DNA of 41,452 nt from Deltaproteobacteria bacterium (lineage in GTDB: Bacteria > Desulfobacterota > Syntrophia > Syntrophales > JAIPED01): NCBI GenBank assembly GCA_021737325.1, contig JAIPED010000010.1, forward strand, positions 1-41,452, read 5' to 3'. Below, one piece after another: positions 11,165 through 41,165 of the stretch; the first letter of the stretch is position 1, and every line of letters begins with the position of its first letter. The translations under genes and the position numbers were made by a program. The notes beneath the pieces are model-generated. The model saw only the letters and a list, made by a program, of their open reading frames with translations. It ran no database searches and was not told the origin of the DNA.

Positions 11165-11857
11165 CTAGTGGTGTTCTTCCATCGCCCCTGCGATATACAT
11201 CATTGACAGAAGCATAAAGACAAAAGCCTGCACCGCCGCGATGAAAACTTTCAGAGCCAGCATTGGCGAAACAAAGAAGGGAACCAACGCCAGTAGAATG
11301 CCAACCACAATATGACCTCCTTGGATATTGCCGAAGAGTCGCATAGACAGAGAAAGCGGACGCACAAGATGGGATATTATCTCGACCGGAAGCATTAGCG
11401 GTGTGAGCCACCAAACAGGCCCCATGAATTGTTTGAGATATTTGATTCCATGCTCCTTAATACCAACTACATGCGTCGTGATGAAAACTAACAGAGACAA
11501 GGAAACGGTGATACTAAGACTCGCCGTCGGAGATTCGAAGGCGGGAACTAAGCCAACCATATTAGAAACAAAGATAAAAAGACCAATGCTCGCTATCAAA
11601 GGGAAAAACTTCTTTCCTTTTTCTCCCATGGTGTTGGTGGAAAAGGTATCCAACCCTGAAACAATAACTTCGCAAACATTCTGCACGGTGCTAGGAATCG
11701 CTGATAGCCTTCGCGTTGCCATAGCCCCAAGAACAATCAGGCAAAACATTACAAACCAAGAATAAACAACAATGGTAAGATTGATACCGTAAAGCTTATG
11801 GATCTCGTCAAAGACATGTGGGTGGAACAACAAAAAAGTTTCCTTCATATTCGTCAA
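11165..11857 (-). CDS. atpB: F0F1 ATP synthase subunit a
   Basis: '[29 protein letters not shown]' carries the conserved arginine helix of subunit a. Confidence 0.96.
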
Positions 11858-12508: not shown

Positions 12509-12969
12509 GGTTCGGGCGGGTAACACGAAGAAACAAGCCAAGTCAACTTGAAAACCCTCTCAGCTATCGCAGTAACAGCTTAATTTTCTTATTTAAGATA
12601 CTTGAAAGGCTCTCGCTCGAAGTACCCGCATCACAGCTATAGCGACAACGACGCCACAAAGAAATTTAATTGTTCGATTTTTTAAGACTTTTCGTTTTTG
12701 CTTGCCACCGTGGCGAGGAACAATAATAAAAATCTGAGGCAAGAACCTTTGTTTCTGCCATGATTTTCAGGCATCTTGCTACCCAATAAAACAAACCATA
12801 TGTCATTCAAAACCTTCTGCACAAACGAATGATTTGTCCCTTCATTGTTGGTTAACGCACGGGTTGTGCAAAGGACAAACATACAATGTCTTTGATGGAT
12901 AGAACCCCTTCCATAGCCAGCGTTGTGTTACGGGCTATCTTGTGGTCAATGGATGATTCACTGAACAAG

Positions 12970-13056
12970 ACAATCATTACAAAATCTTCTGGATTACCGC
13001 TTTCTCGGGAATGACGGTCGGAAGCAAAGAGGTACAGTTGTGCAAGAGTCTTTGAT
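12970..13056 (+). repeat. Palindromic repeat family R1, copy a (degenerate)
   Basis: TCTGGATTACCGCTTTCTCGGGAATGACGGTCGGAAGCAAAGAGGTACAGTTGTGCAAGAGTCTTTG, matching copies at 40653-40746 (inverted) and 41070-41165. Confidence 0.8.
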
Positions 13057-37745: not shown

Positions 37746-37850
37746 AGCCCCCGAAAACTACGAGGTATGGTTTTTGCTATTAGTCCTGCCATGACGGATA
37801 ACCGCGAAAGGAACCTTCTGGTGATAAGACGAGCCATGCAAAACAGAAGG

Positions 37851-37905
37851 AGACCTTCGCACAACCGCACGAGCTAGCCTCTCGGTGTTACTCCCATACC
37901 CGTCG
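37851..37905. repeat. Repeat family R2 (paired with 40913-40960)
   Basis: GCACAACCGCACGAGCTAGCCTCTCGGTGTTACTCCCATACCCG resembles GCACAACTGCACAATATAGCCTCCTGATGTTACTCCCGCACCCG. Confidence 0.7.
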
Positions 37906-37944: not shown

Positions 37945-38053
37945 GGCGGGAGTCCGTCTTGACTGCCTGGTTCTTCGCCCGAGCAGAGCGAGGGCGACAG
38001 GCAGTCATCGCTTACCGCCGAGATTCTTCCCCGAGCGGAGCGAGGGGAAGAAC
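37945..38053 (-). repeat. Cassette leader repeat, copy C (truncated at one end)
   Basis: GGCGGGAGTCCGTCTTGACTGCCTGGTTCTTCGCCC...TTCTTCCCCGAGCGGAGCGAGGGGAAGAAC; matches 39019-39152. Confidence 0.9.
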
Positions 38054-38108
38054 ATTGTGATAACCGGCCCGCGCTGTTTGCGGGTCCGTGTTTATTAGCT
38101 GGTTATGA
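38047..38108 (-). other. attC-like integron recombination site 3
   Basis: Minus strand TCATAACCAGCTAATAAACACGGACCCGC-AAACAGC-GCGGGCCGGTTATCACAATGTTCTTC: AAC...GTT ends with an imperfect folded stem (CGGACCCGC/GCGGGCCG, TAATAA/TTATCA). Confidence 0.7.
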
Positions 38109-38115
38109 AAATCAT

Positions 38116-39012
38116 TCATAGAGCGGCCTGTATTCCACTCTTCTTCTTTTTACCCATCAGGTTCCTTTCGGGTAAAAACTCTTTGTACACTTGTATTTTT
38201 GTATCTAGGATATTCTTTGTTGATTTTATACTATTGCGATTGAACCCAAGAAAACTAAGAGAATTTGAATATTGATTGAGGGCTGGTAAAACAACATGTA
38301 ATGCAAACCATATTGCTCTATCATTCTCATGCTTTACAGAGAATAGATTATTAAGATATGTTTCTAAAATCTCAGTTTGTTTTGAAGCATCATGTTTTAC
38401 AAAAGCGGATTCACTGTGTAAATTTACAGTTGCGTGAGTATTTAGCTGCTCTGATTTTGTTTTTAAACCAAAGAAATAGAGCATTGCCTCAAATGCTTGG
38501 ATTAATTTTATATTATCACAACCTATTAACACTTTATGTTCCTCAGGTAAAAGGCTGAAATTGAGGCTATTATCAGTCAGTATTTTAAAATCATCCGATT
38601 CAAACAAAGCATGTACAAATTTAGCCTCCCCTTCAAACGCACGCTCTATCGCTCCGATATGTGGGAGAATAGTGTGCTTTTTTAAAATAAGATTTGCTTC
38701 AATGACACGAAGAGAGACATCATACATGTAGCTGATAGCAAATATCTTCTTTTTCTTTTCAGATACGTATCGGCTAACGAACTGAAAGATTAATACTGTT
38801 AATGTTGCACCCAATGTAGAAAAGAAAGGAAATAGAAACTTTTCGTTCTGGAAAAAGGCTTTTATTGAACTTGAAAGGCCAAACCATTCTGTAAGAGTTA
38901 CAAATAGCTTGATTGGTACAAGACTACAAACCACCATTGCTGTAATAAAACCAATGGCGAAAAGTAACCCATGCCCAAAGCCTGATTCGTAGTAGCTATT
39001 CTTGTTTTTCAT
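38116..39012 (-). CDS. Cassette-borne membrane protein of unknown function (298 aa)
   Basis: ATG at 39012 (MKNKNSYYESGFGHG...). Two N-terminal TM segments, then a long soluble part. The 39186 ORF start translates the leader repeat and is rejected. Confidence 0.75.
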   Translation of the reverse strand: MKNKNSYYESGFGHGLLFAIGFITAMVVCSLVPIKLFVTLTEWFGLSSSIKAFFQNEKFLFPFFSTLGATLTVLIFQFVSRYVSEKKKKIFAISYMYDVSLRVIEANLILKKHTILPHIGAIERAFEGEAKFVHALFESDDFKILTDNSLNFSLLPEEHKVLIGCDNIKLIQAFEAMLYFFGLKTKSEQLNTHATVNLHSESAFVKHDASKQTEILETYLNNLFSVKHENDRAIWFALHVVLPALNQYSNSLSFLGFNRNSIKSTKNILDTKIQVYKEFLPERNLMGKKKKSGIQAAL

Positions 39013-39018
39013 CTCATA

Positions 39019-39152
39019 ATCTCGGCGGTAAGCGGCCCCGCGTAGCGGGAGTCCGTCTTGACTGCATGGTTCTTCGCCCGAGCAGAGCGAGGGCGACAGG
39101 CAGTCATCGCTTACCGCCAAGATTCTTCCCCGAGCGGAGCGAGGGGAAGAAC
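39019..39152 (-). repeat. Cassette leader repeat, copy A (full length, structured)
   Basis: In sense: hairpin TTCTTCCCC/GGGGAAGAA; closing stem GGCGGTAAGCG/CGCTTACCGCC enclosing TGACTGCCTG/CATGCAGTCA and CCCGC/GCGGG arms. Confidence 0.9.
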
Positions 39153-39210
39153 ATTCCGGCTGAGTGGTTGCGCGTAGTTTGCGCAATCCAACTCAAGCCG
39201 GTTGTTATGC
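39146..39210 (-). other. attC-like integron recombination site 2
   Basis: Minus strand GCATAACAACCGGCTTGAGTTGGATTGCGC-AAACTAC-GCGCAACCACTCAGCCGGAATGTTCTTC: AAC/GTT ends, CCGGCT/AGCCGG, GAGT/ACTC, TTGCGC/GCGCAA with unpaired bases. Confidence 0.85.
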
Positions 39211-39219
39211 CATCCCAGT

Positions 39220-39348
39220 TTATTTCTTTGGTTTCTTTGGAGGCGTTTTGATGGTTTCAACTACCGATCCTTTCTTGTCTTTCTGCGCGTCTTTTACTGG
39301 CTTGAATTTTCCGGTCTCTGCATCGCGTCCGATTTTTTTTGTTCCCAT
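39220..39348 (-). CDS. 42-aa basic small protein MGTKKIGRDAETGKFKPVKDAQKDKKGSVVETIKTPPKKPKK
   Basis: Absent from the ORF track. AAGGAG SD 8 nt before ATG; ends TAA just before attC site 2. Confidence 0.75.
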   Translation of the reverse strand: MGTKKIGRDAETGKFKPVKDAQKDKKGSVVETIKTPPKKPKK

Positions 39349-39372
39349 TTCTGCTTCTCCTTGTGCTGGATT

Positions 39373-39699
39373 ATGAAAATACCAAACAAGTTCAAATTGT
39401 TCGGCCAGACAATAACGGTTTCGTTTTGTCCTGATACATTTACCGACTTAGACGGTCATTATGGTTTTGCCTGTTATCGCAAAAACGAGATTCAACTTCG
39501 GCCTCCAACGGCAACGATTCCGTTGTCTGATGAGCAAATTGCACAAACTTTCTATCATGAGTTGATCCATTTTGTCCTTTATCATGCTGGTGCGGCATAT
39601 TCTGGAAAAAGTGATTATATGCACCAGGATGAAGGGTTTGTTGATCTTGTAGGCAGTCTTTTGCATCAGGCTATCAGTACTTTTGAGTTTGAAAAATAA
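39373..39699 (+). CDS. Small HExxH putative metalloprotein (108 aa)
   Basis: MKIPNKFKLFGQTITVSF...'FYHELIHFVLYHAG' zinc-metalloprotease-like motif. ATG at 39373 preferred over 39202, which would overlap the 42-aa gene and attC 2. Confidence 0.7.
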   Translation: MKIPNKFKLFGQTITVSFCPDTFTDLDGHYGFACYRKNEIQLRPPTATIPLSDEQIAQTFYHELIHFVLYHAGAAYSGKSDYMHQDEGFVDLVGSLLHQAISTFEFEK

Positions 39700-39760
39700 C
39701 GCTTCGCTTCAGCAGCGACGGCGCGTTAGCGCCGACGTCGGCTGGAAGCGATTGTTCGAC
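39694..39760 (-). other. attC-like integron recombination site 1
   Basis: Minus strand GTCGAACAATCGCTTCCAGCCGACGTCGGCGCTAACGCGCCGTCGCTGCTGAAGCGAAGCGTTATTT: AAC/GTT, TCGCTTC/GAAGCGA, AGC/GCT, CGAC..GGCGC/GCGCCGTCG, with an extrahelical base. Confidence 0.85.
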
Positions 39761-39768
39761 GACATGGG

Positions 39769-40266
39769 TTACTTTCCTCGAATTGCCGACGCAATTGCCC
39801 TAGCCGCATACTTCGTAAAATCCTCGTCGTCCTTAAAAGTGGCGTTTCTATCTCCGTTGGTGATTTTTAATCTCGCAAGCGTTTCACCTTGTTGATCTAC
39901 AAGGGTAATCGTTAACAGCTTAAACCCTCCGCCCAAAAAGTGAATTGGGTGGATTAGAATTCTTCCGTTGGCATCCCCCAGATTCTTTGTCAGAGGAATA
40001 GCGTATTCATCTTTTAACATAAAAAAGAGGTCATCTCGCAACTGGAGGTCACTTGGCAACTGCCCGGTGCTTACTACTTTTACTTCGGAATCACCTGTGC
40101 TCTTTTTTAGTTGTTCAACTGCTCCTGATTCGTATGCAAACTCAAGAGTCCACGCACTCACTGTTTGTACCTTGTTTCCGGCGTATATCTTCGAATCCAC
40201 GGATGCACAGGCCGATAACACAAAAGCAATAAGTGAGGTCAAAAAAACCACCACAAACCGATTCAT
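39769..40266 (-). CDS. Cassette-borne lipoprotein of unknown function (165 aa)
   Basis: MNRFVVVFLTSLIAFVLSACAS with LSAC lipobox; SD AAAGGAG upstream of ATG 40266. The 40371 ORF start translates the leader repeat. Confidence 0.8.
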   Translation of the reverse strand: MNRFVVVFLTSLIAFVLSACASVDSKIYAGNKVQTVSAWTLEFAYESGAVEQLKKSTGDSEVKVVSTGQLPSDLQLRDDLFFMLKDEYAIPLTKNLGDANGRILIHPIHFLGGGFKLLTITLVDQQGETLARLKITNGDRNATFKDDEDFTKYAARAIASAIRGK

Positions 40267-40287
40267 TTTCTTCTCCTTTGTCGTCGA

Positions 40288-40369
40288 ATCTCGGCGGTAA
40301 GCGGCCCCGCGTAGCGGGAGTCCGTCTTGACTGCCTGGTTCTTCGCCCGAGCGGAGCGAGGGGAAGAAC
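40288..40369 (-). repeat. Cassette leader repeat, copy B (internal 52-bp deletion)
   Basis: Same ends as copy A (ATCTCGGCGGTAAGCGGCCCC...GGGGAAGAAC), but joined within CCCGAGCrGAGCGAGGG; 82 versus 134 bp. Confidence 0.9.
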
Positions 40370-40433
40370 AAGCAATTAAGCGGTTATCCGCATATCATTC
40401 ATTTCAGTTTAATATTCATCTTTGGATATCATT
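40363..40433 (-). other. Candidate attI region
   Basis: Lies between the integrase start and the first cassette. Contains GTTCTTC (minus), the same core as attC 2 and attC 3; no attC-like fold with a second arm was seen. Confidence 0.55.
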
Positions 40434-40669
40434 ATGGAAAAAATACCTCAACAATTATTACATCAATTTGATGCATGTTTAATAAAAAAAGAGGTTTTGG
40501 AACAAAATCATAATCTCTTCAGAAGTTGATCTGATTATCTTAAAACTCAAGTATCCCTATGATCTTATTGTAAAATTGCTATATGGCTGTGGTCTCAGGT
40601 TATTTGAATGCATGAACATAAGAATGAACAGTTTGAATTTTGATGCCCGGATTAAGACTCTTGCTCAAC
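40434..40669 (+). pseudogene. Integron integrase (IntI-type tyrosine recombinase), internally deleted and truncated
   Basis: Frame 40434: MEKIPQQLLHQFDACLIKKEVLEQNHNLFRS*; shifted frame from 40522: EVDLIILKLKYPYDLIVKLLYGCGLRLFECMNIRMNSLNFDARI, the box I region. Truncated at repeat R1. Confidence 0.85.
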
Positions 40670-40746
40670 CGCACTGCCTTGTTTCCGACCGTCATTCCCG
40701 CGAAAGCGGGAATCCAGATGTGTCTGAAGTAACTTGGTTATTTTCG
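40653..40746 (-). repeat. Palindromic repeat family R1, copy b
   Basis: Contains ATTCCCGC-GAAA-GCGGGAAT and AAGACTCTTGCTCAACCGCAC; inverted relative to 41070-41165. Confidence 0.85.
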
Positions 40747-40788
40747 AAGCAAAGAAGATTCTGCTTCCGTTACTGTTTGGAAGAATAG

Positions 40789-40924
40789 GTTGTGCAGTGG
40801 TCTTCTTTGTCATTTCGACCGAAGGGAGAAATCCCTTGGATGTTCTTAGCCAGAACGCTCGTTGTTGATGTTTAAGGGATTCGCGTTCGGAATGACAGAA
40901 AAAGACTCTTGCACAACTGCACAA
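40789..40924. repeat. MITE-like element with long imperfect terminal inverted repeats
   Basis: Left TTGTGCAGTGGTCTTCTTTGTCATTTCGACCGAAGGGAGAAATCCCTT; right (rc) TTGTGCAAGAGTCTTTTTCTGTCATTCCGAACGCGAATCCCTT. Confidence 0.7.
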
Positions 40925-41069
40925 TATAGCCTCCTGATGTTACTCCCGCACCCGTTTTCACGAGTGCAGGCTCCAGCGAAAGTCCAGAGGTGTTTGAAAT
41001 ATTTCAGTTATTAAGACCCTTGCACAGCCTATTCGTCAAAGCAGTAACGAAAGAAGGGTGTGTATGCTT

Positions 41070-41165
41070 ACGAAAATAATCAAATTATTCCAAACATATC
41101 TGGATTCCCGCTTTCGCGGGAATGACGGTCGAAAACAAGGCTGTGCAGTTGTGCAAGAGTCTTTT
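41070..41165 (+). repeat. Palindromic repeat family R1, copy c
   Basis: CTGGATTCCCGCTTTCGCGGGAATGACGGTCGAAAACAAGGCTGTGCAGTTGTGCAAGAGTCTT. Confidence 0.85.

Follow-up and report, generated by a model that had tools for sequence, protein, structure and literature searches.

The 41,452-nt stretch of DNA analyzed here (the window) carries at positions 37946-40662 a decayed chromosomal integron whose integrase gene, intI, has been destroyed, and one strongly folded mini-cassette without an ORF makes up three units of its array. The whole is quite probably what remains of a chromosomal integron that had an F-type IntI and carried non-autonomous mini-cassettes moved by it. At the level of sequence, the analysis establishes the decayed integron, its attC sites and the mini-cassette family with its precise boundaries, conserved fold and core covariation. 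An integron had already been predicted from the sequence; this reading was supported but incomplete, since the repeated, structured, non-coding mini-cassette had been overlooked.

The integron and its integrase relic

From intI outward, the array consists of attI, mini-cassette A, gene cassettes 1 and 2, mini-cassette B, gene cassette 3 and the cut mini-cassette C (Table 1). As in chromosomal integrons generally, an integron-type tyrosine recombinase gene, here a relic, is accompanied by two or more attC sites that share one orientation, here three on the minus strand. The array abuts the 5' end of intI and the cassettes read away from it, which is the geometry that had been predicted.

Table 1. 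Features of the integron in the window, with scores from the covariance models R1, R2 (attC) and R3 (mini-cassette).
Feature	Position	Strand	Details
mini-cassette C	37946..38052	-	3' end lost at 37946; R3 107.6 bits
attC3	38047..38108	-	weakest site; R2 23.0 bits, window-wide E 0.0018; missed by the nine-seed R1
gene cassette 3	38053..39019	-	bounds from mini-cassette B and attC3; ORF 38116-39012, 298 aa, membrane protein
mini-cassette B	39020..39151	-	full-length, 132 nt; R'' GAAGAAT, circle R' ATTCTTC; R3 144.1 bits (one of the 15 training rows)
attC2	39146..39210	-	R2 28.7 bits, E 6.6e-5
gene cassette 2	39152..39699	-	bounds from attC1 and attC2; without a mini-cassette in front
gene cassette 2, ORF	39220-39348	-	42 aa
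gene cassette 2, ORF	39373-39699	+	SprT-like, 108 aa
attC1	39694..39760	-	canonical AAC...GTT; R2 35.1 bits, E 1.6e-6; R1 39.7 bits, E 2.7e-9
gene cassette 1	39700..40288	-	bounded by mini-cassette A and attC1; ORF 39769-40266, 165 aa, lipoprotein-like by signal sequence
mini-cassette A	40289..40368	-	short variant of 80 nt with a deletion inside it, between two CCCTCGCTCCGCTCGGG copies; terminates in A|TT at 40289; R3 61.8 bits
putative attI region	40369..40433		crossover G 40369; between the intI start and the first unit; layout as in intact integrons with an intI-adjacent mini-cassette
intI relic, F-type (motif KLLYGCGLRLFEC)	40434..40662	+	codons ~1-30 (40434-40523), frameshift, ~215-codon deletion, conserved block 40486-40662

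The attC sites were searched with two covariance models, R1 built from nine seeds and R2 from 66 attCs, none of them from the host genome or from the Nitrospirae MAG described below. The seeds of R1 were chosen with a hand-written attC finder and included one aadA-type seed. As evidence in its own right this finder was rejected, being too noisy and strand-symmetric, and it was used for seed choice only. Over the whole 41-kb window, R2 gave five matches with E < 10, none of them on the plus strand. The top three are attC1 to attC3, the very sites of the original prediction, and the remaining two, at 40344-40283 (E 0.052) and 39075-39014 (E 0.093), are the 3' ends of mini-cassettes A and B; the E-values of these locally calibrated models, here and in Table 1, are rough. 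The three gene-cassette attCs have a canonical core (AAC/GTT), and the approximate cassette bounds given beforehand turned out to be exact to the base, with the R' G at 39700, 39152 and 38053. Two further elements of the prediction held only in part. A GTTCTTC junction regarded as attI-like is present but not attI-specific, as it represents the first bases of the mini-cassette and is found again at 39152 and 38053. The supposed fourth cassette is indeed truncated, at 37946, but it turned out to be the third copy of the mini-cassette, with no gene left.

The ORFs of gene cassettes 1 and 3 (165 and 298 aa) matched no Pfam or PADLOC family. The SprT-like (HELIH) 108-aa ORF of gene cassette 2, which lies on the strand opposite to the array, matched PF10263 with 24.7 bits (E 2.2e-5), below the cut-off of 25.6.

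A broken integrase gene was indeed present on the plus strand, and its extent was corrected from 40434-40669 to 40434-40662. The relic is truncated before the catalytic residues, and the catalytic C-terminus is absent. Its conserved block matched the integron integrase profile TIGR02249 (E 4.1e-7; at genome level E 2.9e-8, profile positions 96-148) better than XerC (1.2e-4), which identifies it as IntI and not XerC/XerD, as had been proposed. The best tblastn score was 73.2 bits to F-type IntIs versus 43.9 to other IntIs, and the N-terminus resembles those of F-type IntIs (E 3e-4 to 1e-3, from a very small search space). Together with attC sites recognized by a model trained on outside sequences, this IntI-type relic confirms the decayed chromosomal integron.

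No intact integron integrase was found in the host genome, which is 89% complete, and the mini-cassette is therefore regarded as immobile there. Two intact integrases, at C71:12602 and C40:2818, were rejected as IntI since they lie far below the TIGR02249 cut-off and are XerC/XerD-like. A second broken intI, at C71:28571-29471 (L018:2571-3471), belongs to the other IntI subtype and contains stop codons and a frameshift; its C-terminal half is up to 58% identical to intact IntIs. The same genome also holds attCs without a nearby integrase (CALIN-like) on contigs C65 (L119:8886-8957, 11214-11297 and 12949-13020) and C40 (L019:9821-9878). IntI matches were found in 114 of 247 relatives of the host.

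In other genomes, intact IntIs of the relic's subtype adjoin the same mini-cassette. Wherever the integrase beside an attI-adjacent mini-cassette could be typed, it was of the KLLYGCGLRLFEC subtype, and among loci fetched for IntI alone the mini-cassette was adjacent in two of seven F-type cases. This association of F-type IntI with the mini-cassette is suggestive only, because most of the typed loci were picked for carrying the mini-cassette.

Both eroded edges of the array carry dispersed palindromic repeats of the TTCCCGCGAAAGCGGGAA type (37843-37903, 40654-40804, 40895-40955 and 41013-41163), which also occur near cassettes on three other contigs (L014, L013 and L016). These repeats are possible mediators of the truncations that affected intI and mini-cassette C.

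Distribution, fold and boundaries of the mini-cassette

Within the window, mini-cassettes C and B are 98% identical over 108 nt, after which the similarity stops. Further copies lie before other genes on host contigs C34, C51 and C23, with a degraded copy on C72; those on C34 and C51 are 94-99% identical to mini-cassette A. An exact-stretch pattern scan of 85,462 genomes returned one match, in a Nitrospirae (Nitrospirota) MAG, where a full-length mini-cassette nearly identical to mini-cassette B has an intact intI directly on one side and the array on the other. By BLAST, the mini-cassette was detected in 25 of 299 relatives of this MAG. Plain BLAST of the host relatives found essentially nothing outside the host and so suggested a host-private repeat, a view that was overturned by R3, a covariance model of 15 full-length aligned copies. 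With R3, the mini-cassette was found in 51 of the 299 relatives of the Nitrospirae MAG and in 26 of 396 host relatives (77 genomes), the two samples having no genome in common. The carriers thus appear to span two different phyla.

These results bear on the simplest explanation, namely a plain decayed integron in which the repeats are ordinary attI or 5'-UTR sequence with chance similarity. The integron itself is fully supported, and the original prediction saw nothing beyond it. Recurrence of the repeat on other host contigs, in another MAG and, by the model, in 77 genomes with compensatory changes nevertheless refutes this explanation, which we regard as extremely improbable.

No match to the mini-cassette was found in plasmids, and the one short match in phages is probably due to chance. 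In IMG/VR, four putatively viral contigs (L251, L252, L253 and L254) match a mini-cassette pattern. Rfam gave nothing significant for the whole window at gathering thresholds, and for four mini-cassette loci it gave no family, only one sub-threshold match.

The mini-cassette has a median size of 133.5 nt, and the longest ATG ORF in 42 copies is 47 aa. There is no conserved ORF, and sequence changes track base pairing. Among the 15 aligned copies, both-sided changes occur in 16 of 30 predicted pairs and 91.6% of cells are paired; the copies share descent, and these and the following counts do not represent independent events. The covariation score of the fold is 0.377, compared with 0.174 for shuffled and at most 0.09 for slid partners. 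The inner, attC-like fold, in which an unpaired A serves as the extrahelical base, covaries too in its L''-L' pairing, and six L' bases therefore keep two mutually exclusive partners.

The 5' boundary was examined in 38 copies. In 20 of them, the R' G of an attC is base 1 of the mini-cassette, with an offset of 0 in 20/20. A divergent intI was detectable at a distance of 50-219 nt from at least five others, and several more start at an attI-like motif, for example TAATAACTG|GTT. At the 3' boundary, the conserved sequence stops at [A/G]|TT, and in many copies R2 recognized an attC ending there. Copies within a single genome (3-8 each) have median identities of 0.84-0.98, while the 130-nt flanks on either side are unrelated. 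Head-to-tail pairs were not seen among the listed copies. At one locus (L185, G574:C2:67306-67726), a pair of closely spaced mini-cassettes occupies opposite strands, an arrangement unexpected of a one-directional array.

A repeated, palindromic and precisely targeted unit could also be something other than a cassette, namely a site-specific transposon-like or retro-element (a MITE or a relative of group II introns) with the G|TT of attI or attC as its target. Insertion into attC sites is known for some insertion sequences. Group IIC introns likewise target these sites (PMC7923331). We consider such an element very unlikely, as no Rfam family was identified in the four loci searched (one sub-threshold match) and no target duplication was seen, while the 3' end is recognized by the outside-trained attC model and its R'' is complementary to the circle R', which is a property of cassettes.

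The A|TT core and the movement of the mini-cassette

The circle R' is the box that circularization would form from the last base and the first six bases of the mini-cassette. It pairs with R'' at seven of seven positions in 84% of 51 copies, the mean of 6.75/7 exceeding the maximum of 5.90 obtained in 2000 permutations. The crossover base covaries with its partner: A is always found with T (46/46) and G with C (5/5, the G copies coming from five genomes). Instead of the canonical AAC/GTT, the core is AAT/A|TT in 46 of the 51 copies. Since the gene-cassette attCs immediately upstream of mini-cassettes retain AAC (20/20) and G (18/20), the A|TT core belongs to the mini-cassette and not to the arrays generally. 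An inner AAC box was also considered as R'' and rejected, as comparison with the circle R' favored the outer box. The outer stem is devoid of the usual unpaired spacer and extrahelical base, whereas the inner attC-like fold has both and pairs worse with the circle R'. At L156:1501 and L150:1604, the upstream gene-cassette attCs have A|TT in R' but retain AAC in R'', which looks like an exchange of the crossover base with the A of the mini-cassette.

The mini-cassette has the attributes of an ORF-less cassette, as it lies between two att crossovers, contains its own attC with an R'' complementary to the circle R', and has no conserved ORF. The best reading is that of a self-contained, non-coding and non-autonomous cassette moved by one IntI subtype. 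An intact IntI would excise it as a circle via its own folded attC with the core A|TT, and the circle would insert at the G|TT of attI or of a resident attC. After strand exchange, the 5' boundary would carry the G of the partner site and the 3' boundary the A of the mini-cassette itself, as observed in most copies. We infer this movement, including the action of IntI on the A|TT core, from the boundaries and the dispersal.

The deviating core can also be interpreted differently. AAC and GTT are the only conserved bases of attC sites, and in the L boxes of attI a missing G/C is tied to blocked exchange (PMC2727003); by the same reasoning, an A core could be inactive. The mini-cassette might then be a fixed 5' leader (regulatory RNA or insulator) that is welded to certain gene cassettes, has a dead A|TT junction and moves together with the gene via the gene's attC. 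It does lie directly before the next cassette, with a start codon within ~60 nt in most loci, and its fold is strongly conserved, including hairpins outside the attC arms. A slight surplus of G-T over A-C pairs on the top strand (34 vs 16) would be compatible with RNA, although much of it falls in one hairpin and the structure was derived from RNA energies. Near-identical copies, however, precede unrelated genes in the same genome, so that the joint must have formed many times, nearly always at A|TT, and the partner box of R'' exists only in the circular form. A welded leader is therefore unlikely, though less so than a transposon-like element.

A promoter scan remained at or below chance, with no sigma-70-like signal in 42 mini-cassette copies; a section of a study on Vibrio reports that promoters of gene-less cassettes were not identifiable in silico (PMC11014356). 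The conserved fold before genes allows a role as RNA. On balance, we favor the view that the mini-cassettes are a non-coding family with a conserved, possibly switchable fold and an A|TT core, which spreads through integrons of at least two phyla as a MITE equivalent or a portable regulatory leader, and that some IntIs accept a core other than G|TT.

Significance and relation to known systems

In the literature, where subscription papers were thinly covered, we found neither an A|TT core nor a conserved family of structured mini-cassettes described. A large natural AAT/A|TT family with a perfectly compensating partner base would test the purpose of the core base. Positioned before many unrelated genes and with a recognizable 5' boundary, the mini-cassette is a natural tracer of strand-exchange sites. 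It also bears on the expression of cassette genes distant from the integron promoter, and cassettes in these lineages can be overlooked or wrongly divided when integrons are annotated from ORFs.

The locus resembles sedentary chromosomal integrons and CALINs (IntegronFinder 2.0, PMC9024848) in its divergent intI, in attC-bounded cassettes without assigned function and in the decay of intI. It differs from them in having three gene cassettes only, a destroyed intI and three units that are one structured mini-cassette. Cassettes without ORFs or genes, some with promoter activity, have been described in Treponema (PMC6557892) and Vibrio (PMC11014356). Like the mini-cassette, these are non-coding, att-bounded, sometimes in first position and upstream of gene cassettes. 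Those papers deal with individual cassettes, whereas here a single folded family has its size, fold and A|TT core conserved across genera.

Canonical attC sites have an unpaired spacer and extrahelical bases (PMC2727003). The mini-cassette shares with them a 3' end recognized by the attC model, a long imperfect palindrome and an R'' complementary to the circle R'. Its R boxes are RRRGAAT / ATTCYYY in contrast to RYYYAAC / GTTRRRY, and it has two mutually exclusive covarying folds. In delta-attI-type cassettes of mobile integrons, attI fragments lie downstream of resistance genes and the sites are still functional (PMC12901181). Both are non-standard recombination sites inside cassette arrays, but the mini-cassette is an independent structured unit.
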